Source: Marchantia polymorpha subsp. ruderalis (taxonomy: Eukaryota; Streptophyta; Marchantiopsida; Marchantiales; Marchantiaceae). From it: DNA of 64,000 nucleotides. How positions within the stretch are numbered: position 1 is the first letter of the stretch; the number at the start of each line of letters is the position of its first letter. The DNA is taken from assembly GCA_037833965.1 (NCBI GenBank), contig AP031356.1, positions 16,700,501 through 16,764,500 of the forward strand. The letters run 5' to 3'. Position numbers and translations under genes: made by a program. Under the pieces are notes generated by a model, which was not told the DNA's origin, ran no database searches, and worked only from the letters and a program-made list of their open reading frames with translations. Shown here piece by piece: positions 1,326 through 35,666 of the stretch.

Positions 1326-4300
1326 ATGACGGTAAAAAATGCGCAGCCGAGCACCTCCCGGCCTTCTTTGGTCAAATTTCGCATGTCAGTACTGATTCTC
1401 GTACCGAAGAGCGTCATTTTCATGTCTTCTTTTCACTCCTGCATTGTGTTCCACGGATTTCAAGTTCTCCACCGTCGTCGTTGCGGTTGAGAAATTTGTC
1501 GTCTCCTCTGTTTTTTGACTCTCGTCGAACGGCGACTCCTTGTGCAATTCTTGCTTCGTTGCTGAGGCTGTTCACTGTCAGTTCCAGATGCTCGTCAACT
1601 TTCCTGAAATTCGGTTCTGTACCTCGATGGTTGGCATGTAACATCTTTACGGAATGTCTGAATAAATGAATTTTCAATGCTTGTCTTCACACGTTAAATG
1701 CTGTAAGTAAACAGACCTGGAGTTCACGCTTTAGCTTTCTGTAACATTCTCTCGGCCGCTCTTAAGCCACTGCTACATCTTGGAAACCTCGCGTAAGTTT
1801 TGAAGTTCTGACAAGCACAGACGTTTCCTGTTCTATTCTTAAACCATTCGCATCTTGCCCCTGAAGTGTAAGGTAAATATTAAAAGCGCCTACATTTTCA
1901 CTTGATTGAAGTGTTTCAATTTGCATCCATCAGGCCCACGGCAGAGAATTTGATTCCTATGCGATTGGATGTGGAGTACGAAGGCCGGAGGTTGAAGGAC
2001 GCCTTCACATGGAATGTCGATGGTAATGCCGTGACTATTATTCTAACTTGAGATAATCTTTCGTATACAAATCAAGTTTGTTATACGTACAGTTCGTTAT
2101 GCGACTAAGATTCAAAAAGTATAAATAGTGCCTACATGAGCAGGTAAGTACCTGCTCATGACTTACAGTGTCCTATTTTGATTCCTTGTCTTTTGGGAGG
2201 AACTTGGTTCAGACATTGAAAAAAAAATTAAAATCTTGAGTGCAGATCCAGATATTGAAATCTATCCTTTTGTTAGAAGAATGGCCAAAGACTTGAATCT
2301 TCCATCTGGTTTTACACCCATCATAGCACAACAAATGCAGGTAAACCCCGTCTTGTCTTTGCCTTGATCTGCAATGATAAATGACGCAGCTTATGAATGC
2401 ATTTTGTTCAGGAACACATGTAGGCTCGTATAATTAAGTCGGCGTGATCTTGAAACCTGAGAGCATCTGCCATCAATCTGCACATTCGATTCAACTTTCA
2501 CCAGCACGTTCTCCTCACTAGGGTTCTTTCTCCTCTAGTTCAAGACCTAATGCATACATCATGATTATAGTTGGAGTAACGAAAAACGGAAGCACATGTC
2601 ACGTACAGCCTCATGGAACGATTGGTTAAGTTTACAAGGAATTTCAATGTATTACAGGTGCTACAAGTATTCCCGTTGTCAAATTTCTCTTATTTTTTTC
2701 ACTCTTCCATCAACAAGCCAGTTCATGGCGTCTCTAGCGCTCGAGAGGAAACGTGTCATGGCTTGGTTGCGAGCTACTTGACATCTTCTCTATCTTGGTA
2801 CTCAACAGACACAATTAGATGAATTCCGTTCACTTGAAGCTCAAGAAATGACGACTGAGGAGCGGGTTCAGACTTTGCGAGTAAGTACGTCTGAGGTTTT
2901 AAGGATGTGATTTAATAGTCTAATATTACCCTAGCATGTTGAACAGTTAGTAACAACTTCATAATGTGTCTCATCTGCTCTTTTTCATTACCCGACTCTG
3001 GGTTGTCCACCGAGAAAGTTTAGTACATAGTTTTTGATGGTTGTGAAACATCGTGCTTTTCTCCTTTCTTAGTTGAAGTTTCATGTTTATTCCAAATGAT
3101 GAACTCGTCGCGAGTTTTGCTTCTCTATTGTTTGCAGTTGGACCTGAGAGTAAATAACACAGTCGTCCACGATCAGTTTCTTTGGGTAAGAACTTAGCTA
3201 GAATCTTGCTGTTTTTCCCGCGTAGTAAATAGATGTATCTTATGTTCCTTATGCTGCTGTGCCATAAAAATATGTTTCACAGACCATGTAAAATCATTTC
3301 CCAGTGAATTTGGAGCATGTTCAAGTCTTGCACGTTAGTTTGATTCTTCTCATTTTCTCTCGGTCGTTATTATTTTCCCCTTCGCCTGTGTGATGAGTTT
3401 AGTGGCTTTTGAATAAATATCTCTCTGACGTCTTTCATCAATTTTCTTCGGTCTTTTCCGTTATTTGGTATTAGTGTTTTCCCTCATCTAATAGAGCTAA
3501 ATGGTAAATGGTAAATGGTAAATAGATCAAGCCCGTGGGACCCAAAGGGTCAAAAGGCTAAAAAACACAATACAAACAATCCAACTCCAACTACATTTAC
3601 AATTCTACTCCAGCTACATAACTTAATTTTTTTACGGGAAGACTCCAATTCAAAACGTCGTTTAAGTTTTAAGTCTGCATATGTACATGTCGTTCTGTTC
3701 TGTGATTTGAGTTTGTGTTTTTCGCAATTTCCTTCAAATCCAGACATTCGCACTTATTCTTACAATTTCTCTCGCTGGTTATTATTCACCGACTCAATAC
3801 AAATCGTATACTGTAATCCTACTTGGTACTTACTATACAGTGTACACTTCAGGTCACATGATTGGTTCATGCTGGATTATATTTTACATCTTTATATGAT
3901 ACTCATTTTCTCAATAATTTTTTCTCAGGACGTCAACAACTTCGATAGCGATCCTGAAGGGTTTGCTAGAGGGTTATGCAAAGATTTGGAGCTAGAAGAT
4001 CCGGAGGTTGCTGTGAGTATATTATTGCATGTCAATATTACTTTATTTAATCTAGCGTCTGTAATATAGTAGAACTTGGTATTCGAACATCAAACATGTC
4101 GTCAGAACTTGGTGTCTGGTTTTACTCCGGAGGTCGTAGTAAAGCTACTACGCCAACCGCCGAAGATAAGCTTCCTTGGCATTAGTTGGTATATCCAAGT
4201 GGAGTTTTTTTAGAACCTTATTAGCGCTTTCTTTTACAGGATGAGTTTTAAGACTCTAGCTCTCAACGTACACAGTATGTCTTTCTGTGTTTGTTAGTCC

Positions 4301-20267: not shown

Positions 20268-23200
20268 ATGTCTCGGACGACTTCCAACGACACATCGTCG
20301 CCTGGTTGGGCGCGCTATAGTTTCAGCCATAATGATTCCAGCGCACCGTCGTCGCCTTCGGTGTCCGATAGGGGCAAAGCTGTAGATGAGCAGAGCTCGT
20401 CTGATCCGACACTCACGGTGCTGGGGAAGCTGGAGAGGAAGTCGGGGAGCTCGAGGGTGCAGCAGAATCCTTCCTCGCCGAAGGGCAAGAGGATGAAGAG
20501 TGCCTTCTTGGATGAGGAAGCAGGTAGGCCTTAGGTCATCTGGCTGCCAGCTACATTCTTGTGTTTGGGAAGCTCGTCGGGTCGACGAGCCCCGCCCACA
20601 TTTCCTCTCTGTCACCTTCTCCACCGTTTCCATGCACATGCCGCCCGACTGTGATCGTTCAGATTCTCGCACATCGCATTGCCTGTGTGGGGTGCACGTC
20701 GCATTAGAGTGCTGCAGAGCTCGATTGCTTTGTAAGAATATGTAGACTTGTCATTCCTTCTTGAGACAGGTGATGAGCTCTGAACATGCAGGTGTTCAGC
20801 GATGTCGACACTGCGATTGGATATATCCAACCCCAAACCCGAGTGCACGAACCCGGCGCGACCATAAGAAGAAATGTGGGAAAATTCAGACTGTCCAGCA
20901 GTGGTTGCAAGTGATCGATCCCGGTGATCAGGACCTCCAGGGTCCAATAGAAGAAGGTGCGTCGAATGCCCTGCTAGATGGCCCAGCAGCGCCACCAGAA
21001 TGTTCCATGACTGACTACTAGGTGGTAATTAGGATCCTTCTCAGCTTTACGAGTTGACATGGAGTCCCGCTCGTGCACTCACACACCCGCCGTGAGATGC
21101 ACCTTGCAAGTGGGCGAGGGTGGGCCATCTGCGACCGCCACTAAGTCTTCACGTGAAAGTCAACCGGAACTTGTCTTCAGTCTGGTGTGTAGGTCCCGAG
21201 GCTTCTCTAGGCTGAAATCGTGCATTTGTTTATTCCTTCCGTCGACTTATGATGGGCCTCATTTTCCTGTGCAGGGCCACGGCCTGTAGTCCGCAACGTA
21301 GCCATGGAGATCGATAAGGCTCCAATTACTTCTGACCAGGAGCTCGAAGATAGAGAGGCTTTAGATTTCGCCAATGTAGCTGTGGCGGAAGGTACAGACG
21401 ATCGTGAGAATGATGGGGAGGCCACGGAAACTAAGCCCAATGGAGAACATGTTTCCAAATCTTACGCGGAATCTGGGGAAGGCAATTCCCGAGGAATCGA
21501 GAGACCGTACAACCCACTTGTTGTAGATGGATCCGATGAAGTTGCAGATAATGATGCCGAGGGACAGGAAACACAAGTCGATCATGACAACGGAATATCA
21601 GGAAACGGCGATTTTGATCAAGTCGAGACTGACGAACTAGGAAACACGGAGGATATGCAAGAGCCGGGAGACGCCAGGGAGTCCTATGTCAAGTCAGATC
21701 GTCCTGAGGGCCCAGAGCACCAAATGTCAGCTGGAGGTGCCGACGATAACGAAGCCCTCAGGAGAGGCGAGCTTCAAGATGAAGCTGAGGGTACGGTAGA
21801 TCCGAGCATCGAGTTTCCAGGTCTCCAAAGCGAAGCAAACCGTGTCGATGAAGACGATATTGGAGATGGTGGCCAGGAGGATAGCTTCTCTGACAAACCA
21901 GTAGAAACTATGACGCTCGAGAAATCCGGAGGAACGGAAGACGGTGAAAGAGATGAGAGGAACGGGGGATCTAAAGAGGAACTAGATATGGAAAACTCAT
22001 TGCCTGCTGTTGACCAAGACGGAGCAGACCATTCGATAGGCGGTGTTGGTATAGAGAACGGAAACACCGATGGCGAGGAGAAAGTTTTCTCCAGAAGTGA
22101 CCGTGAGATTAGCTCACTTAACATCGAGGATGTTGATGATTCGTTTAGTCCAATTGCGACCAGAGACCATAGTAATGCAGAGCTCGCAGATTCAAGTAGT
22201 TCGAAACCAGACAATTTGATGGGCAGCACCGATCTCTCCAAATTTGTGAAGCCTGAAATCACGGTTCCTGGTTCTGATGAAGACACAGGGAGCCGTGTCC
22301 TCGTCGGCACTCCAAGAAGTATACTGGGCGATAACAAGTCGGAATCTTCTTCATCCTCATCAAGCAGTTCGTCAGCGGGTGATGACAGTGATATTGATAG
22401 AGGAACACCAGGAAGGACATCCCAGGTCGAGCGAACTCCAGTTTCTGGTTTCCGACAGCCCGTTTTTTCTGTGGAGCTGGAAATTCCAGATGCGGGAGAC
22501 TCAAGACATAGCTCCGTTGGCGAATCTGCCTCGGCTTCACCATGGAGATCTCGCAATGCTGTACAAGATGAATTGATGGAAGGCATGACGGACGATCCAG
22601 CTCCTCCGCCAAGGATTCGGACTAGGGTGGAAATCCGTGTGCCCGAAACACCCGAAGACATTCACACGGCCATCACACCCACCTTTACTGCGACAACGAC
22701 AATGAACGGAGAGACCACGCCCGAGGGAACACCCGGAACGAGCTCTGGTCCCGTGCATCAAGTGGCTGTTGTCGGCAGTTCAATAAAAGAGAAGGATTTT
22801 AAAGCCAGGCAGATGTACTGGGCCGAGATTACGAGCAGTGACGTACTGGACGGTCATAAGCCAATAACTAGCAGATCGTCGTTCGAAGACAAGAGGCCAC
22901 TTCAATTGAAACACAGACTGAAGCCTGTGGATGATACGCAGAGTCAGAGTTCCATTGACACCATCACAGACAACAGTAGAGAGGTCAGCAAGGATGATGA
23001 TGTTGAAGTCGCAGACTCCGAAGCAAGCACATCAAGTCCGCATGCCGGGGCTGTTGCAAGCTCCCCGGATTCGCATCCCGTGTCTGTGGAAAGCTCTTCG
23101 AGTTCGCCTCCCGTGGATGCTGTTAGCTCTCCAAAATCGCATCCCGTGGCTGTGGAAAGCTCTTCGAGTTCGCCTCCCATGGATGCTGTAAGCTCTCCAA

Positions 23201-26200
23201 AGTCGCATCCCGTGGCTGTGGAAAGCTCCTCGAGTCCGCCTCCCGTGGCTGCTGCAAGCTCTCCAAATTCGCATCCAGCTTCTTTGGAAACCTCTTCGAG
23301 TCCGCATCCCGTGGCTGCTGCAAGCTCGCCAAACTCGCATCCCGTGTCTGCGGCAAGCTCTCCTCGTCCGCATCTCGTGGCTGTTGCAAACTACTCAATT
23401 TCGAAATCCGTGGATGTAGCAAGCTCTTCAAACTACTCAATTTCGCAATTTGTGGATTTAGCAAGCTCTTCAAATTCGCATCCTGTGTCTATAGCGAGCT
23501 CCTCAAACTCGCAGCCAGTGGTCGAGTACGACGTTGAGCGGGTAGTTCACCACCAGAACACCCATGACATCATGTGCCCCGTGTGTGGGTCATGTATCAC
23601 CAAGCGAGTCATTCTGCGGAAGAGGAAGAGAACTGAAATTCCGAAGTATGACTCCAAGTGGGAGGAAATTGATCCTGCCTCTCCCCTCGCCGAGCCAGTA
23701 CGTGAACGCGAACTTGAACCTGAACCTGAACGTGACAGTTGGGGTTGGGGCTGTTTGTCCTGCTTCTCCGTATTTTTCCCAGGTGAGATTCTCGCAATTT
23801 TCGTGCGAAGTGTTAGCATCGCTGCAATTTCATGGACAGCCGATCTTTTTTTCGCTGCTTTCCTCTTGGCAGCACCCCGTTCCAAAGCTTCTGGCGATTG
23901 TTCATGGCATCTTCGTTCTTTGTTGTCCTGTTTGTTCCATTTTGCATTAACGATTGATGTGCTCGTATTCGTTACAGGACCGGAGGCCGAGTCGAGAGAA
24001 AGAACCAGCTGTCTAGAATTCATATGTCCTAAATTTCTATGGCGAACCAATTCACTTCCAGCGGTGGAACCAAGTCGCAACTACCAAGTTGATGACCCAG
24101 GTATGAGCAAACAACGTGGTGTTTGATCCTCTTACAACTTTGCTGCACAGACTTGGAATGAGTAGGACAAATTAAGTGCAGTTCTCAGCTGTCACCTCGA
24201 ATTTCGTGAAGGAGTTTTACTTTCGTTGTTTGCTTTTAGTTGGCAGTGGAGGTAACGCATCTGAATCTTTAGGAAGTGTGCAAATGCTTGCACTCGAGAA
24301 TTCAAGTTTTTGCTCTGAGGTCCTCTCGTTCAAAGAAATCTCAAAGAACCGTTTATCTGAATATTGCAGCACTAGTGGAACCGCTGCTTCCCACAAGCGA
24401 CATCCCCGAGCCTGTCACCCCTCCTACGGTTGAGTCACAAATCCCTGCGACTCGTGAAGATGAGAAGGATTCAGTCAGCTGCTTCGATTACTTGCGCAGA
24501 AACAAGAGTTCTCCGGTCCCGAAGAAACCTCCGCAAGGTAAACCCAAAATCTTCCCAGCAAAGTTGTAGGAGGATCAATTCAGTACGTGTTCAGGCTCGT
24601 CTGCTCGTGGATTGTCTCGGACTGTATCCTACTTTCAGCTTCTAACCGTTTCCGAAAACAATCTGGGCATGGACAGAAGTTAAACCTGAAGTTCCTGTAC
24701 CTCCAGCCGAGAGCGTTGAACAACCTGCATTGCAGGAGGAGGAGCCGCTACCAGTTTCGACCGGGGAGATTACATCACCCGCATCTGAAGGTCCTGAAAA
24801 ACTGTCGATTCCACAAGAGCCCAAGGTCGAGCCGCCTCCACCTGCAGTGTCCACGGTAAAAGTCGACATCGCTGTCAAGGCAGAAATTACACCAGTCCAA
24901 GAGGAACCTGAGATCCAGCAAGAGGAGGTCCGATCTCGAGACTGGTCCAGCGCACAAGTGAACCTAGATGTTCTTACACGGAGCAAAACATTGACAGACT
25001 CCGCCGAACAACCCGACTTGAGGAGCGTCGTGTCGGGATTTGTAGACTCACCAGAAGCACCGAAGGTACTGCCCGCTGATGAGAGAATCAATTGGCTTTC
25101 AACTGTGCCGAAGTTATTTTGGAGAGCTCGCACGACTGAGGGCAAGCCACCACTCGACGAAATTCGTCCACCTTCTCCTGTGAGTGTAATTCTATCGGAG
25201 GAGAAGAATGAACCTGAAGTTACAGATACAGATATTGGCACACCGCCGGATGATGGAGTACGTAGCCCTCCCGAAGAGTCGCCTCCACCGGAGCCAACAC
25301 CATCTCACGACGAGGGCGTCCAGACGCCTGAGCCATCGGAAGCAGCGCAGCCGCTGCCACCAGCGAAGGAAGACAGCAGGTGTCTGCCTCTGTTCAGCAG
25401 TAGGAAACCTTCTTCGATGCCCATCGAGGCCAAGCCTACTATCGTCGTCCACCCACAGCCTTGGAAGATTATGTCGTATCCAGACATGGACACTCTGCAC
25501 CGCCGATCTATCCGTGTCTTCTGGGACTTTGACGAAACTACCACCGTTTCACCTGCGAAACCAAAGCCTGCCCTTCCCTCGGCTGATCGTCCACCTCGAA
25601 AGACTCATTACGTTCCCGTCGAAGTGGACTCTGACGACGAGATCGTTGACATCGGTGAACCCTTGCCGGCAATTGTTGCCCCTGCAGTCGCTCTTCCTTT
25701 GGTGGATGATGGACTTACAACTCCTCTTCTACTAAAATCTCCGAAGGGGCTTTCAGCGCCAGAGCTGCCTCATAAACCGACAGCTGAGCCGTGCTCTTGC
25801 TGCGGCGTCATGGACATTATATTGCCATCTTTCAAGCGGGGCCGTAAACCTGTGGAAACCCCTCCAATTGGTGAGCTCCACACACCAACTTTGCATTAAT
25901 TGTATGCGTTCTATGTGTCGTCAGGGGAGAGAATCTACTCATAGGAATTGACTCAGTAACTGTGAGTCAGTAACTCCTGCAGACACTGCCTATCCTGCAC
26001 TGAAGTTCCAGGAGGGAAGCGAATTCAATTCTCGCTTTTCTCACTGGGACCTCAGTTATCTGCAGATTCTGATATTATTGAAGTCTGCTGAGGAATGACA
26101 TAATCTTCGAAAATGGGCTCTGAAGTTATTTTTCATCCAGAGGATGGCATAGTAGCAAGAGCAGCTGACAGCGTGCCGGCTGGTGTTGTGATTTTCTGCG

Positions 26201-28781
26201 CTTTATAGTCGTTCAGCAAGTGGCATGTCCTTGGAAATTTGGATGGTCATTCAGTTCTCAGTTGTCAGCAAGGTAATGATTGGACCATTCGCGATTGAAG
26301 AGTGCACGGTCACCGGAGGTAACTCACACTTTGCTAAATGTGTTGTCCCTTTCAGAAGAGGTTCCGATCATTGTGCCTCCCGCGGCGGAAGATGCAACAT
26401 CAGCAGCACCTTCGACGAGTGTCAGCATTGAGGCTCCAAAAGAAGAACAGGAGCCTCCTCCGAAAGACGAATACACGTCTTATCAACGGGAGGAGAATCG
26501 CGTCGTGGGGCACGTTGTGACGGTCACCACGACTGTAAATGTGAAGAACAACATCGAACAGTCTATCGAGGTTCAGAAGAACGTGACTCACTTTGAGACG
26601 CAGTTCGACCAAAATAAACACATTCTTTCCTCTGAAGTGGTCGGTGCGGAAGACTTGAAGCAGCCGTTAACAACAATCGCAGACCAGGAGGAAGAGGTTG
26701 CAGAGGGTGAAATTCAAGCGGACCCACCACTCATTAGAAAGAAGCCGGAGGGAAAATCGCAGACGAAAGCCAGCGAGATAGCCCAGGCCTTGATGAACGA
26801 AGCCTCGACCCGAGACAAGCCAGATCATCAAGTTGACACTCGCGTCCACACTCCGTCCGAGGCAAGAGAACGTGAGCGATCATGCTCTTGTCTCCCTTTC
26901 ACTCTGCCGATGCTGTCCCTATCTTGGGACCGAAAGAATGACAGGGGCGGTGAGTCCCATCACATCTTGGACATGACATATTTGTAATAGCTCGCAGGCG
27001 TTACTTCGTCCTTCCATCGTCCCCTTCTACCTTTTATCTAGACGCGTTGCTTAGTCGTGTCCTCTTTCGTCAAAATTTGTTTTGCTTGATTCCAAGTAGT
27101 GAGTCAGTATGGCTGCAGCATCTCTTGCTTCGTGTGGGATGAAATCCTACAATGGGCAAGAGTCATTCGTTAAAGTATTCCTTCATCTACCTTTGAGATT
27201 ATCACATTGGACTTTGTAAAGACTCCATGCTAACATAACATTGAACGCCACCTCATGAAGCCCCGTAATTGTGGGCAGATGGATGGGCCTAGTGTTTAGA
27301 TTACTGCCCTCTGTTCTTGTAGATTGTTCACTCTGCTCTAGCGGAATTTCAGGCTTGCTTCTTACCCTTCTGACCCTTATGAAATTTGCTGAATATGAAT
27401 CAGAGTTTGATGAGCTGACAAGACCACTTCTGGGAGGTCAACAACAAACCCTGGGGCAGCACCCGGAGTCCATCATTGACATCCCTCCTGCGCACGCTAC
27501 AGTTTCGGGCACGACTCCTCTCACCCCAGGAAGAATTGCTCCTGCTGCTTCCGATGGTTTCGAGGTCGTGAAGAGTATAGTTTACGGTGGACTTGATACC
27601 ACCCTCATCAGTCTCGGAGTCGTAGCTTCTTCCACCGGAGCCGACGCTAAGACAAGTAAGTCCCAACAACCACTAATGATGCGCCTGTGTGCAATTCACA
27701 GTAACGGAGCAGCACTTTCCCAAGAAAACTCTGAATCACGTGACGTAAAAATTTGCGACTTGCTATTTACCGATTTTAGAACACAGAGTTCCAAATTGAC
27801 ACAGTCAAAATTTAAATTAGAGCTATATGCATCGACAGAGTATCGACTGTGTATAACTTTGAGCCACTCACTTCGCTTGAAGGGGAGGTATTGACAAAGA
27901 GTTTTGATTTTATGCAGGAACGGTCATCATTATGGGTTTGGCCAACCTCATCTTCGGCTTTTTCCCCTTTCTCGGCATCGTAAGAAATCTTCACACTCGC
28001 CCATTGCTCTCTCATTATTCTTCTGTCTCGAGCATACACCCATCGTAGTTCGCCTTGAAATTATATTCCTTCAGTAATGTGTACTGTTACAGTCAAAAAC
28101 CAAGATGTAAATATTGGTCTAAACTGAAGATAAACTCCCTAAACTGATACACAGAGTAAGTCTATCATCGGAAAAGGATCCGAAATTACTCAGAAAACTA
28201 ATTTCAGAGTTGGCTTCGTGAATGAAAACAGTAGGCTTAAAACATCAGAATGAAGACGATTGCGTCCTCATTCTCATTTGAGTCAAGCTTACGAAGACGA
28301 TTGCGTCTTCGTATGCTTGACTCGAATGTTAAAAATCCGAAGTTCTTTCAGGAACGAAGACTGTCTGAATTTGAATAGCTGAAAGAGGTGATATTGTGTT
28401 GGTCGCTGTTGTGTTTTGCAGATATCAAATCTATACAGATCTGATAGGGCGCAATTTAAGCAGCAAGTCGGCCCAAGTTTCAGATTCAACGGGTTTCTCG
28501 CAGTATTCTCTTACATATTGTTCGGTTTGATGCCTCCGCTAACTTACGGTTTCAGCTTCCGCAATGAGAGTAACAGGGACTACAAGATGGGTGCGACTAG
28601 TTTGCTCGCCCTCTTTTGTATAATTCTGCTGGGCTGGGGTAAAGCGCGTGTAACATTTCAAAGTGCTTTTAAACTAATATCTACACTAATCACGACAGGA
28701 TTTGTTGGAGCCATCGCTTGTTACCAAGCAGGAGACTACGTCTCAATGCTTTTAGATTACATAGGATTCGACAGTGTATAA
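20268..28781 (+). CDS. Giant MEB-like (VIT1/CCC1 family) membrane protein with zinc finger and long repetitive N-terminal region
   Basis: Ten coding exons join in one frame (1,920 aa): 20268-20523, 20792-20956, 21275-23782, 23978-24100, 24370-24537, 24677-25870, 26356-26949, 27323-27655, 27918-27979, 28422-28781. Visible parts in order: a Ser-rich start; a C-x2-C-x16-H-x3-C zinc finger (C90, C93, H110, C114); a long Asp/Glu/Ser-rich stretch; Ser-Pro repeats about 727-891; the box CPVCGSCITKRVILRKRKR (from C908), which I recall from plant MEB proteins; then Cys/aromatic boxes. The C-terminal domain (~1749-1920, FEVVKSIVYGGL, MGLANLIFG, LMPPLTYGFSF, several membrane segments) matches Arabidopsis MEB1/MEB2. 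Those are ER-body membrane proteins related to iron/manganese transporters. The large metal-binding loop of true VIT1 proteins is absent. Arabidopsis MEBs are far shorter, so the N-terminal size is unusual. Transport activity here is inference. Confidence 0.85.
23032..23525 (+). repeat. Ser/Pro coding tandem repeats in MEB-like exon 3
   Basis: The coding sequence repeats phrases such as SSPKSHPVAVESSSSSPP. The best-preserved units are 66 bases (22 codons) apart: matching AAGCTCTTCGAGTTCG copies start at 23091 and 23157. More diverged 16-22 residue units follow to about 23525. The repeat stays in frame, so it is tolerated or selected as protein. It is predicted to be disordered and rich in possible phosphorylation or glycosylation sites. 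Length variation between individuals is likely. Confidence 0.85.
23783..23977 (+). other. Stop-free in-frame intron (possible exitron) of the MEB-like gene
   Basis: This GT..AG intron is 195 bases, a multiple of three, and has no stop codon in the gene's frame. Retention would add 65 residues, including the hydrophobic runs LFFAAFLLAA and LTIDVLVFV. Splicing is favoured because it joins the CLSCFSVFFPG box directly to the next Gly/Pro-Glu segment with the gene's usual phase-1 junction. A retained form is possible. Confidence 0.55.
28280..28323. repeat. Hairpin in the last MEB-like intron
   Basis: Twenty-base arms (GAGTCAAGCTTACGAAGACG and its complement with one mismatch) enclose the loop ATTG. 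A related GAAGACGATTGCGTC copy lies just upstream at 28252-28267, so the arm seems to derive from a local duplication and inversion. Confidence 0.75.
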
Positions 28782-31379
28782 TACCAAACGCGTTGTCGTT
28801 ATGAGTTTAGGAACTTATGATCCTCTAGACCTACCCTCACCTTGATACCGCTGTATGAAGGCCTTTCACCTTGGGTGGTAGATTAATGTCCCCTGCAGTC
28901 TGTTACGAGATATTGTTGTTGTTCTAGTACAACAATATCTACGGTACTCCCTCACACCTCTGGAGATTGTTGTGCTCCATTATTGAGTGGGAGGTGTTAT
29001 GGAGTGAGAACTGCAGTCACCAAAGCTAGTAGCCATATATAACTGAATTTTCTGATCTCAGTTTTCCTCTGCCGAGCGACCTGTTTGCTGGAAGAAGAAT
29101 TTGGAGGAAACGAATAATTGAAGGCGGAAAGTATTCGAAATCACACGTCCTGGAAATCACACGTCCGGGAATTGTGCGTTGCCTGTTGTAAATTGAGCTG
29201 TGATCGAGTCTATAAAGCAAATTTTTTCAACCAAACTTTCTCGTTGTTTGTATGGAGTTTGTAGTGATCAAAACGTCAACTCTTGGTCGATGTGCATTTA
29301 TCTTGTCCTCACCCAACTTCGCACTTTACGAGGATTGCAATATTCGCTGCTACCTCTGAACTCGTGATGTTCCTCCTGCGTTGATTGGACAGAGCTTTGG
29401 ATTGAGTATTTATAATTCTTAAAAAAGTCGAGATATTCTGTTTTCCTGCAGTTAGGCAGATAGTTCAATTGAGTTATGTTTCGAATCGTATTACAGCGTC
29501 TTGGAGGAATCCGTAAGAAAGTATTCGAGAACGTTTTATAATCTGCGCGTAGTGTAACGTAGCCATCCGACTTATAAGTGAATCGAAATGATTTACTTCG
29601 ACCTGAAGAAAGTATTACAAAATTTATAGATCATTTCGATGTTGACGCGGTTACTCGGCATTTTCGCGGGTGAAAGCACCAATATAAGTTTGTCCCGAAA
29701 TGTCATGCTCCTTGGTGTTTTTTCTTAACTTTGAACCTTATTCGTACTTGATATTCTTCTAGTGTCTATTGGTGAGGATGCCAAGAGCGCTGCAACTGTA
29801 AGCTTCTCTACGTTGGAACCTGGTAGTTCATATTCATTCGGAGCGGGATTGGTACCTCCAATCTATGTTATTGGATATGTACCTGGAACCATGTGTACAC
29901 GGGATGATTCATGTGAATTCTATGTTTGATTATTATGAATAAAAATATTAACCTTAAGATTCTTTTTCGTCCTTACATCTTTAGGAGATGGATCTTTTAG
30001 GCTTGATGAATTCGTTGGTTTAGTATTGATAGAAGTGAAGGTATTTATAAGTTATGTGACGATGAATATATTGAATATGTATGTAATATCATTTTTACTC
30101 AGAAATGAAATTTGTTTATATTTTAATGTGTAAAATTTATTTTAGTACTTAAAGTTAGTTTTTTTATTTATATATAAAGTATATCATTAATTATCGTTCT
30201 ATTATTCTTAAAATTAAGTAAGGATTGACTTTTGGGATCGTTTCACTTGTTCTATTGAATTCTAATTATTTATATAAAAAAAACTAGATGAGATTTTTAA
30301 ATAGAAATTATGATACAATATAAATAATATCAAACCAAATCTTCGCAAGTTATTGTTCTTGAAGGAAATCAAAAGATTGAAACTTTCTCTCAATCCACTT
30401 ACAATCACGAGATTGACGATTCTCAGGTTTGTGATCAATCTACATGGGACATTTACGGTGGAGAGAATTAATCAAAAGAATAACATGTTTGAGAGGACTC
30501 ATCAAGCGAGACTTACATGGACGAACATAGAAGGGAATATATGGGGCCAGGTCCCAATACCATCCCAGTGTAAAACTTGCAAAATATCTGTAAGAGATAT
30601 CTACAACAGGAAATTCGAAACCCGATTGCAGAGCTTAAGAGTTTTCTTCAAAGCAATGAAATCGCAAACCTCACCTCCTTCAAAGTATATACAAATCCCG
30701 GGAAAGAAAAACAAATCACTCACAGCTCTTACAACTCACGGAATTGTTTCCACATACACCCGATATATTTTGAAATCATGATGGACAGATCAATGAGTTT
30801 GGAGGCGCAGATTGAATATGGCTCCATCGCTCAATCATGGTACGGTCGGTCCATTTGATGGTGATGGTGAACTCGTCTCGAGAAAGAAATGACCCGTGAC
30901 ATGAACCACTGTCACACCCTCCTCTAGTCCTCATGGTGCTGATGGTGATTGGTACTCCGTATGCCATTGAATCTGCAATCGTTGCTTCGGTACGTAGCTC
31001 ATTCTCCCTCGGTGACATCTCGCAGATGAACGGCGAGATCTCGGTTTTCATGGCATCCAAGAAGATCTGCCGTCAAAACTCATTCGGTGGAGGAAGTATA
31101 AAGCGTTTGCTTGTGACGATCAGCGGTTCGGTTACACGCAATTAATATGATCTGCAACATACACCTGACCTCCATCTCTACGGAATGATTGCAGATTTGA
31201 TCTGGGATCAAGTAAGTGTATTTTCCTTCAGCTTAAAAGCTTCGCTAAGCTTCCATTTGGCAAGTATTAGAATTTCACTCAGAGGAATTAAAAGATTTGG
31301 TTGCGACTGGAGGACTGGTGGCAGCTTTTGCCGCGCGACTGTTGGATGTCGTGTTGGTCTGACGGACAATTCTAGGACG
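28782..31379. other. Spacer between the MEB-like and helicase genes
   Basis: Holds the 3' untranslated region of the MEB-like gene and the upstream region of the helicase gene. A 12-base-arm inverted repeat (AGATATTGTTGT..ACAACAATATCT) lies at 28908-28940. From 29930 to 30340 the sequence is AT-rich. A 142-codon open frame at 30353-30781 (+) has no recognised similarity and is not called. Confidence 0.45.
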
Positions 31380-34300
31380 ATGGCGGCGGCGATCTTACAC
31401 GTTTGCTCGTCTCCCGAACGCGAAGTGGACGTTGGAATCGGAGTGCCGCCAAATGGCCGAGGAAGTGCGGAAGCGCCCGAGTCTTCTTCTTCGAGCGGCG
31501 GGTGTCGTTCTGGTATGTCGTCGGAAGCAGAGAACGACATGGCGACGACAAGAATTCGGTTTGCACCTACCGACTCGACGTTGCCTGTCCCGTGGAAAGC
31601 CCTGTTGGGTGTGGTGGATGGACACGAGCATGTGTATTTCTGGAATCCTGTCACCAATGTGACGCAGTATGAGAAACCGCAGTCTTCGGTCACTGAAGGA
31701 GACGCTCATGCTACTCGAAATGTGAGATTTTCTTGCGCAATTTTGAGTCGATTATTCTTGTATGATGAGTCGCAGCTTCTTTCAGCACATGGAATTAATT
31801 TTGGGAGTGGCTAGTTATCCCTCACTTTATGCTAATTATCCCTCACCCACAATCAACCATTTACAAACATTAAGCACTCGAAGATGCTCGTCATATTCTG
31901 AAGGAGGTAGCCCCGTGTCCTGGAGGTGCGGTGCTTGTGAAACACAAACGATAGACAGAATCTTCAAACCAGCGACTTCCATTTGACAGTCCATGTTTTT
32001 TCTATGAACTTCGCGTTGAGACACGCACAGAAGTGTAATCAAAGATCGATAACGTACCACAATATTGCCACCTCCAGTTGCTAGGAACTGGAGAGGAGCA
32101 CTGATGAGATATTCTCCACCCTCAAGATGAACCTCCAAAAGTTTTAATTTCTTGTAGGATGAGAGATAACTAGCCGCTACCTTTATTTTTTGTGCTTTTC
32201 TTTCCTTGAGTCGATTTCAATTCTGTTACTTTGCCTCTGAAATGTTTTCTCCTAGTGTAGTGGGAGGGACCGGGGTCTGTCGCTACAGCAAGACGTGAGG
32301 TACGTTCTCATGCACAACCTTTCGTCAATCTCCTCATGAGTCGGGATTTAGCTTCGTCTGAGGTGAAAGTTAAAAACTTTTCTACCGGGATCAGTACTGG
32401 GGATCACAATATTGACTTCTTACAATTTCAATTCATTTGAGGTCTACTTCTTCCAAGATATTATCTACTCAGTACTGATTCATTCCAATGTTTAGCTTTA
32501 AGTAGCTAGGATTTATAACATAATGTGTGCATCAACTTTATTGCCTAGTCTGTTATCTACTTCATGTAACTTCAGCCCACTCTTTCATTGCATTAGGACG
32601 TTAAGTTTTAGCCGATCAATGCACTGGGTACCATAACTGGTTCCTTCTCCTCGTGTTTGAGCACAAGCATTTTCGGGTCTAATATCTTTGTTGCCAAACC
32701 TTTTGTTAGAGCACATTCCGGTCCAATCAATCAGCCGTCTCAAACTGTTCAATTGTACCAAGCGATATTATTTTCTAAAAAAATACCTCTTACCAGCTTA
32801 CGTAGGACTTCATTTTTTATTATTTCGTCGCTAAGAGTAGAAAGATAATCTTGATAGCTCACCAAAACTGCGGGCATCTAGACCAATTGGTTCATTATCC
32901 AATGATATTTTTGTTTTGTGGTTCGAAAATGAGTGACATGATGGTGTAGAATGCGACTCACTTCTTAAACCATAAGTGAGCAATATACTCAAATCTTCAC
33001 GAACAGGCTAGAATTTGCTACTTGATTGATTTCTATCGGAGGAACTGAAGTGGTTTGATACACGGATCATCCTGATAGATGGACAGTTTTGAAATCATTG
33101 AGCATTCTGTCTTTATTATCACTTCATTTCTTGTGCGACACAGCCGATCGGAGTAGAAATCAACAAGAATGGTGCTGACTGGTCTGCAGCTGCCTCTCGA
33201 AGCACTAAAGTCCATAGATCTCATGATGGCGATTCTAGTAGAGGCATCAAACGCCCTTGCACAGGAGAATCACCAGATTCCTTCAAGCGACCGAGATCCG
33301 TAGTCTCATACCCAAGAGTTGACTCATCACCCGAAATCAACGCATACAAGAAGAAACATGAAATTACAGCGCAGGTGAGTGTTAATTCCAATGCACTGAG
33401 TGACACATTTCTCAAATCAATGAAAAAAAAGATCGACACTGACTGGCAATGAATTGCCCCATTGCAGGGAGACAACGTTCCACATCCTTATGTCAGCTTT
33501 GACTCGACAAGCTTCCCCTCAACTCTGTTGCAAGAGGTATGTACTTATTGATTTACATTTGTGTTATCGATACTGGACACTGGGTCGAATTTTAAGGTAC
33601 AATCCTGTCGACTTAGTACTTCCTCAACTGTCGAGACATTTCCGATGTATGCGAATGGGTCATCTCAGGAGCATTTCGAGCTTCGAAGCGAGCGCGCTTT
33701 GGCTTGTCATTATTTTCCTGGTGTGGGTAAACTGACGACGCCGCCGGTGCGATGTTCAAGACATCAGCTCCAACTGGAGCTGATACGTTGGCCGTAATCG
33801 TGGCTGACTGAGTTTAGGGAAAATACACTAGCTTCCTCTCTTAAAACCTGTGGTAGTGAAGAGCATGTCGCTAGAAGCTAAGCTGCAGGATCCCCCTCTT
33901 TCTTGACAATGTTTCCAAGCGTTATGCATGCATGTATGGATGATTCTATGATTTGAGAACCTGCAGCTGAAAGCAGCAGGCTTTACTGCACCATCCCCAA
34001 TACAAGCACAGAGCTGGCCCATAGCGCAGCAGGGCCGTGATCTGGTAGCTATTGCGAAGACTGGATCCGGAAAGACCCTTGGATATTTGGTGCCCGCATT
34101 TCTTCATCTTCGACGTTACCGAGATCCAGCTTTTTGCGGTCCTAACATTCTGGTGTTAGCACCCACCCGCGAACTCGTCATCCAAATTCAGTCGGAAGCA
34201 AAGAAATTTGGCAATTCCTCGAACATATCTAGCACTGTAAGCTACTCTGACCGCTAGCAGCTTTGAGTGCTGACATACTGTATGACAGGAAATGAGGGCT

Positions 34301-35666
34301 CACATTTTTCTCTCACCACGTTTAGCGGATAATCCATTGAACGTGAGCAATTTAAAGTTGAAATTCAGTCGTAAAACATAGTTCTTCCTTCACTGCGGTA
34401 CGTAGTTTCTTGAAATCGGTACAAAGACCTCACCTTCTTCATTTCTCAGTGTGTATATGGAGGAGCCGATAAGAGATCTCAGTTGCAAGCAATAGGTCGA
34501 GGAGTTGATATCATTGTCGCCACTCCTGGCCGCTTGAACGATTTCCTGAAGGCGAGGACAGTCAGCTTACAGAGGGTTTCTTACGTCGTCCTTGATGAGG
34601 CAGACCGCATGCTCGACATGGGATTCGAACCCCAGATTCGAGCGATTTTCAGTCAATTACCCGCTGAAAGGCAGAGCCTGATGTTTACTGCTACATGGCC
34701 GAGAGAAATAAGATCTATTGCGGGAGAACTGCTTTCTACTCCCGTCCAGATCAACATTGGCAGCACCGATGATCTCGCAGCGAACAAGGCGATCATTCAA
34801 GTGAGTCTGAGCCACTTTCCGATCTTGCGTGAAACACCCGTGGACTTCTTGAAAGGTTCGCGCTGCTCTGTTCTTTTGCTGCATTCCTCTGGGGCCGGGA
34901 TTACTTCAATACTGATGCACCCATCTCAAACTGTTTGCAGCACGTAGAGGTCATTAAGAGGTTTGATAAGCAGAGGAGACTTGAGCAAATTCTCAAGAGT
35001 CAAGACAGAGATTCGAGGATTCTTGTGTTCAGCTCTACTAAACGCATGTGTGATCAGCTAGCTCGCAATTTGAATGGTTTCAAGGCAGCAGCTATCCATG
35101 GGGACAAGTCTCAAGAAGATCGGGAGTTCACTTTGTCTCAGTTCAGAAGTGGAAAATCTCCAGTTCTGGTTGCAACTGATGTCGCTGCCAGGGGACTTGA
35201 CGTGAAGGACATCAGGTACGATCGCACACAATGCAACTTTAAAGCTGAATTCAGTAAAGTGGAATCCCGTCAGATTGCTTCCATGTGTAGGAGTTGGCTC
35301 TTTATTGGAGTGGGAAGATATGGATAGACGCAAGTGTTGCAGCCCATGTGCATCAGATTCTCTGAGAATGGGAGAAAAACATTCAATTGTACGGATCCAC
35401 TCATGCATGCAGTCTATTGATACCGAAGTCTTTCATGTTCTTACTTCAGGGTGGTTATAAATTATGACTTCCCTACGAAATTTGAAGATTACATACATCG
35501 AATCGGTCGAACTGGTCGTGGTGGTGCAACAGGGACAGCATATACATTCTTCGATGGTGGACAGGATGCGAAATTCTCCAAAAAGTTGGTGAAGGTTCTC
35601 GAAGGTGCAAATCAGAAAGTTCCCAAAGCGCTGGCAGATATCGCTGCCCGAGGTGGAAATTTCTGA
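31380..35666 (+). CDS. WW-domain DEAD-box RNA helicase (plant DRH1/RH14/RH46 group)
   Basis: ATP-dependent RNA helicase of the p68-related plant group. Eight exons join in frame to 597 aa: 31380-31721, 32261-32299, 33144-33374, 33468-33536, 33967-34236, 34450-34800, 34941-35215, 35450-35666. A WW domain lies at ~70-100 ([23 protein letters not shown]). Motifs are Q ([10 protein letters not shown]240), Walker A AKTGSGKT 257-264, PTREL, TPGR 342-345, DEAD 366-369, TAT 397-399 (in place of SAT, as usual in this subgroup), [10 protein letters not shown], and HRIGRTGR 542-549. All core motifs are intact. The start is the first ATG in the GACGATGGCGG context; an in-frame ATG 195 bases upstream gives an unrelated hydrophobic leader and was not used. 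The C-terminus stops soon after the core, without the long Gly/Arg tail of larger family members. The 39-base second exon rests on frame continuity. Confidence 0.94.

Follow-up and report, generated by a model that had tools for sequence, protein, structure and literature searches.

One gene model occupies positions 20268-28781, on the plus strand, of the window, that is, of the whole 64,000-nucleotide stretch of Marchantia polymorpha subsp. ruderalis DNA that was analysed. When this model was re-derived from the sequence, its 10 exons spliced into a joined frame of 1,920 codons plus a stop, with no internal stop codon. All nine introns are GT-AG, the TAA stop is at 28779-28781, and eight of the nine introns are in phase 1, as expected of a gene whose exons can be shuffled or duplicated. 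The features of the gene are as follows.

20268..20523, plus strand: exon 1; Ser-rich N-terminus, residues 1-85, starting at the first ATG of the open frame
20792..20956, plus strand: exon 2, phase 1-1; zinc finger, with its core at 20803-20877 (residues 90-114)
21275..23782, plus strand: exon 3, 836 codons, phase 1-1; acidic/Ser-rich low-complexity region, then Cys/His box and GWGCLSCFSVFFP motif
23035..23429, plus strand: coding tandem repeat, 33/66-bp, inside exon 3
23557..23628, plus strand: CPVC box NTHDIMCPVCGSCITKRVILRKRK, residues 902-925
23740..23781, plus strand: WGWGCLSCFSVFFP Cys/aromatic motif downstream of the CPVC box; the box copy at C7:20.12 Mb has a similar motif after it
23978..24100, plus strand: exon 4, phase 1-1; Cys motif TSCLEFICPKFLW
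24370..24537, plus strand: exon 5, phase 1-1; Cys motif VSCFDYL
24677..25870, plus strand: exon 6, phase 1-1; Pro/Glu-rich, with Cys motifs RCLPLF and PCSCCG and a hydropathy peak at residues 1396-1421
26356..26949, plus strand: exon 7, phase 1-1; Cys motif SCSCLPF
27323..27655, plus strand: exon 8, phase 1-1; hydrophobic segment 1671-1689, and putative VIT helix 1 with the Asp43 equivalent D1761 (27595-27597)
27918..27979, plus strand: exon 9, phase 1-0; putative VIT helix 2, with Glu72 replaced by N1790 and Gly76 kept
28422..28781, plus strand: exon 10; short loop, hydrophobic helices, Tyr175 equivalent Y1832 and stop; best Pfam VIT1 stretch at 28488-28733

The coding signal at 20268-28781 is genuine. 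Exon 3 is a single unspliced stretch of 836 codons, and 300 first-order Markov simulations of the region, read in all six frames, produced no stop-to-stop frame longer than 290 codons. On the same strand, the two remaining frames are broken by 26 and 66 stops within exon 3 and by 9 and 24 within exon 6, and G+C by codon position over the whole coding sequence is 0.587, 0.479 and 0.493. By sequence, the gene is single-copy in its own genome. The low-complexity region and the CPVC box are joined regardless of splicing because both are within exon 3; the finger (across intron 2) and the membrane domain (across introns 3-9) would be linked to exon 3 by the reading of splice sites, among which the exon-6 acceptor, GGACAG, is weak-looking. 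The original prediction had described one continuous ten-exon frame of 1,920 residues, and the GT-AG introns and the lack of internal stops bear this out at the level of the predicted splicing. The C2HC zinc finger that it named is found in exon 2 as C90-x2-C93-x16-H110-x3-C114, and the CPVCGSCITKR box is found in exon 3 at residues 908-918. The acidic/Ser-rich region is likewise present, but the predicted extent of about 800 residues was too short, since the low-complexity part covers residues 141-890 and, in addition, 1018-1669.

A charge-hydropathy plot places both of these segments, the low-complexity residues 141-890 and the Pro/Glu-rich residues 1018-1669, on its disordered side. The 33/66-bp repeat is a coding minisatellite, which makes length variation between individuals plausible. 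The finger, the acidic region and a basic RKRKR patch all lie in the N-terminal part of the protein. Between the box and the membrane domain, short motifs combining Cys with aromatic or hydrophobic residues recur (GCLSCFSVFF, SCLEFIC, SCFDYL, RCLPLF, PCSCCG and SCSCLPF), and these may dip into the membrane or be acylated. Aromatic residues are in excess near the 11 cysteines of residues 930-1669, with only 3 of 5000 random draws as high, and mean hydropathy around the same cysteines is elevated more weakly (135 of 5000 draws as high); both tests overstate the case because the cysteines are clustered.

The finger of the window gene (CRHCDWIYPTPNPSARTRRDHKKKC) has relatives at three other loci of the same genome, which was searched as nine contigs totalling 241 Mb. 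With the finger's own sequence as query, 11 places matched among 14 candidates scored, and a composite query matched all 12 scored candidates, at 4 loci: eight at C7:4.867-4.873 Mb, two at C9:15.576 Mb, one at C7:17.316 Mb and the one in the window. The other 11 fingers read CxxCxWTYPNxHPSAKHRRxHKKxC. In the zinc-finger genes at C7:4.87 Mb, C9:15.58 Mb and C7:17.32 Mb the finger is followed by low-complexity sequence, as in the window gene; unlike the window gene, they showed no box and no VIT domain within the 9.9 kb fetched for each. By eye, every finger frame shown for the C7:4.87 Mb array has low-complexity sequence after the finger, and the C9 and C7:17.3 Mb fingers sit in short frames, after which come long low-complexity frames. 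The array itself (C7:4865000-4874900, minus strand) consists of eight fingers in successive similar frames with low-complexity linkers, an arrangement suggestive of a gene that arose by duplicating an exon in tandem. A script count placed a possible phase-1 acceptor at most 50 bases upstream of 11 of the 12 fingers; for several of the fingers, acceptors in other phases are possible as well, and one copy in the array lacks a phase-1 acceptor within that distance. The finger thus looks like a module common to the three other loci that would have been joined to the transporter via phase-1 exons. A Pfam search with the finger gave nothing over cut-off, the best hit, XAF1_C at E 0.15, being treated as chance, and a PDB sequence search gave nothing at E 5.

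Further matches to the CPVC box lie at C7:20.122 Mb (56%) and C3:16.505 Mb (59%), which makes three loci in all. These copies (C7:20121907-20122023 and C3:16505265-16505387) lie in frames of 165 and 159 codons, respectively, and close to its end each frame has a hydrophobic stretch that contains Trp/Cys; the frames stop 92 and 58 codons past RKRKR, and could still be spliced onward. When the fetched stretches, extending some 17 kb beyond these boxes on the downstream side, were compared with the VIT tail, nothing scored better than E 0.76. Over 33 codons, third-position changes make up 23 of 36, 19 of 31 and 24 of 42 differences in the three box pairs, and dN is 0.26, 0.24 and 0.38, with a dS of 1.95 for one pair and saturated (not computable) for the other two. 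Differences that fall mostly at third positions argue that the box is conserved at the protein level. In Pfam the box region gave nothing over cut-off, and the best candidate, DUF7385 at E 0.084, was treated as chance. Against the PDB, the box drew a list of 20 sequences with E values up to 5, headed by the C2H2 finger proteins 2i13 (5e-7) and 1mey (2.6e-4); the 2i13 match is formally significant but was judged to reflect a likeness of TH-x4-CPxCG to the link between two C2H2 fingers.

The C-terminal multi-pass domain had been assigned to the VIT/CCC1 family, and a profile search with the spliced tail (exons 8-10) agrees: against a curated cut-off of 28.1 bits, the Pfam VIT1 model (PF01988) scores 40.1 bits with the tail alone and 32.7 bits with the whole protein. 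Furthermore, the better of two matches in a PDB sequence search with the tail was VIT1 6iu3, at E 0.0017 overall and with both ends of the fold aligned, a weak match in that its two aligned pieces are singly insignificant (i-E-values 12 and 0.38). When the genome was searched exon by exon with the VIT1 model, the 64 matches at E 0.001 did not include the window; the model recognises the protein only in its spliced form. Residues of 6iu3, the VIT1 of Eucalyptus grandis (EgVIT1), were mapped by adding 21 to the chain numbering, which reproduces the published Asp43, Glu72 and Tyr175. The tail shares with EgVIT1 the equivalents of Asp43 (D1761), Gly76 (G1794) and Tyr175 (Y1832), whereas Glu72 is replaced by Asn (N1790) and, by ungapped extension of the alignment, Met80 by Phe (F1798). 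The spacing between the Asp43 and Tyr175 positions is 71 residues, as against 132 in VIT1, which leaves no room at that place for the metal-binding domain found between helices 2 and 3.

A hydropathy scan, which is not a topology prediction, gave about five peaks in the VIT part (1754-1772, 1784-1802, 1823-1841, 1862-1880 and 1883-1901) and further peaks outside it at 1396-1421 and 1671-1689. A single-sequence structure model of exon 10 contained three helices (pLDDT 59.5, pTM 0.33) and was too poor for a fold search. The vacuolar dileucine motif [DE]xxxL[LI] was sought in the protein and is absent; MEB3 likewise lacks it, according to the portion of PMC11922923 consulted.

Might the finger and box belong to one gene and the VIT tail to another? 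An upstream gene with finger, disordered region and box could have been misjoined to a short downstream VIT gene starting near M1689, where exon 8 offers an in-frame ATG. Such a reading would accord with two other loci that carry the box but no recognisable VIT domain in the fetched stretches, and with three that carry fingers but neither box nor VIT within the 9.9 kb fetched. It is nonetheless unlikely: intron 7 is only 373 bp long, with scant space for a terminator and a promoter, the phases agree at every junction, and a long N-terminal region before the membrane domain is reported for MEB proteins (PMC11922923, in part).

The preferred reading is that of a single gene, which probably encodes a MEB-like endomembrane metal transporter of the VIT/CCC1 family. 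This transporter would lack the loop with which VIT1 binds metal in the cytosol, and would carry a long scaffold on the cytosolic side. As set out in the parts consulted of Endo et al. 2025 (PMC11922923), plant VIT proteins comprise VIT1, VTL and MEB, and the MEB subfamily extends beyond Brassicaceae. In the same source, neither Asp43 nor Glu72 is conserved in MEBs, the long N-terminal region is variable and of unknown role, MEB1-3 rescue yeast ccc1, and MEB3 resides at the tonoplast, transports iron and weakly zinc in yeast, and is thought unrelated to ER bodies. Homologs of the ER-body partner NAI2 are reported only in Brassicaceae in the excerpt of PMC3947992 consulted. A search of the literature on MEB or VIT in Marchantia, liverworts and bryophytes found no title on this protein. 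It had been argued that ER bodies are specific to Brassicales and that a MEB-like protein in another lineage points to an older, undescribed role; this is largely answered in the consulted portion of PMC11922923, and the inference is mostly not new because MEBs outside Brassicaceae and a tonoplast MEB3 are already published. What may be new is that a zinc-finger/disordered module is joined to a transporter of this kind.

Compared by published description, without alignment, the window protein is like Arabidopsis MEB1, MEB2 and MEB3 in its C-terminal VIT (DUF125) domain, the lack of conservation of Glu72 and the long variable N-terminus, and differs in keeping Asp43 and in carrying a zinc finger (PMC11922923, in part). 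Of the MEB traits, the loss of Glu72 is present (N1790), as is the long N-terminus, with about 1,670-1,740 residues before the membrane domain; the loss of Asp43, a trait reported for sampled MEBs and not a definition, is absent, since D1761 aligns with that residue. The N-terminus is presumably far longer than in MEBs, which are not known to carry a zinc finger. The CPxC...TKRVILRKRKR box, which we take to be a trait of MEB proteins, is present. The assignment as MEB-like thus stands as regards Glu72 and the N-terminus, while the retention of Asp43 speaks against strict membership. Given this combination the protein is filed as VIT family, MEB-like; it is a likely but unproven member of the MEB subfamily.

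The same residues could also be those of a divergent VTL-type or other VIT-family protein that is not a MEB, a less probable assignment with some claim to attention, which overlaps the MEB-like transporter in function so that the two are not exclusive. As described in part in PMC10794610, VTL transporters (MtVTL8) resemble the window tail in lacking the metal-binding loop, keeping Asp43 and having no acid at position 72, which is Gln in 22 Group II VITs; the consulted main text of that paper does not contain the word MEB. In the same account the Met80 equivalent is conserved in VTLs, unlike in the window tail, and the tail matches the VTL-like gene at C8:22.68 Mb insignificantly (E 4.0). Of the genome's other VIT genes that were fetched, the one at C4:25.099 Mb matches the tail best (26% over 88 and 43% over 35 residues), a proximity that would suit a VTL-type origin; yet that gene has neither the long N-terminus nor the short loop of the window protein. 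In the C4 gene (GGLDAIVTTFALVAS; C4:25096000-25102500, minus strand), helices 2 and 3 are separated by a long Glu-rich loop, which on our reading resembles that of bryophyte VTLs with a metal-binding domain in the part of PMC10794610 consulted.

For the MEB-like transporter, homology, key residues and module relatives can be read in the sequence, and from there we infer a scaffold role, transport and a topology. By proton-driven transport the tail would shift Fe2+, perhaps also Zn2+ or Mn2+, from the cytosol to the lumen of the vacuole or ER, and the N-terminal part of ~1,670 residues would form a cytosolic scaffold. The zinc finger and the CxxCxxC box, with the basic patch after it, might bind zinc or partners, the spaced Cys/aromatic motifs could dip into, or be acylated at, the same membrane, and the box may capture metal in place of the absent VIT1 loop. 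The loss of Glu72, Met80 and the metal-binding loop, together with a finger, an acidic region and a basic RKRKR patch in the N-terminal part, would also fit a VIT-fold anchor that does not transport, and that tethers a zinc-finger scaffold or a membrane-bound transcription regulator. We consider such an anchor quite improbable: Asp43, Gly76 and Tyr175 are kept, and the MEBs that rescue yeast ccc1 do so although Asp43 and Glu72 are not conserved in their subfamily (PMC11922923, in part).

A transporter that doubles as a sensor is a more speculative idea, and we give it little credence. An early-land-plant MEB-type transporter might be a metal-sensing scaffold in which the VIT1 loop has been replaced by the CxxCxxC/His box and a zinc finger on a giant disordered arm, either gating transport or being released from the membrane to signal metal status; the Asp43-keeping form would then lie between VIT1/VTL and the MEBs of flowering plants. 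If the fused form is real, this is a gene with which to ask about the role of the uncharacterised MEB N-terminal part, and about what MEB-type proteins do in the absence of ER bodies. It would also draw attention to the HPSAKHRRNHKK finger and the CPVC box as two small conserved modules, found separately from each other in this genome.

Several observations elsewhere in the genome are recorded here in their own right. Among the VIT1 matches listed, 56 are exon pieces in tandem arrays, at C9:12653041-12962371 (14), C5:27492419-28189199 (31), C5:18074047-18121298 (3) and C3:21990030-22169028 (8), spaced mostly 16-26 kb apart with some larger gaps. In a protein-level comparison of four sampled array copies with the VIT1-type gene at C5:28.57 Mb, identity was 80-100%, and two neighbouring C9 copies are identical at 3,051 of 3,051 bases over the fetched stretch. 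By eye, the sampled units also contain laccase-like and peroxidase-like frames, and Rfam gave no match in six fetched stretches. The arrays are possibly captured gene fragments in amplified units.

A genome search for the DYW deaminase family, run without a positive control, gave no match; for green algae and complex thalloid liverworts no editing has been reported, according to the part of PMC5295000 consulted. The LEAFY C-domain was found at one place in the genome, as two neighbouring exon matches. Taken with the nine contigs, these results would fit a plant outside Brassicales, probably a complex thalloid liverwort. Outside the gene, 9 of the 115 window frames of at least 85 codons were searched with Pfam. 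The downstream neighbour is a DEAD-box helicase (PF00270, PF00271; window positions 34414-35324, plus strand), and a WW-domain match below cut-off lies upstream of it, at 31146-31811 (plus strand), possibly as part of the same gene.
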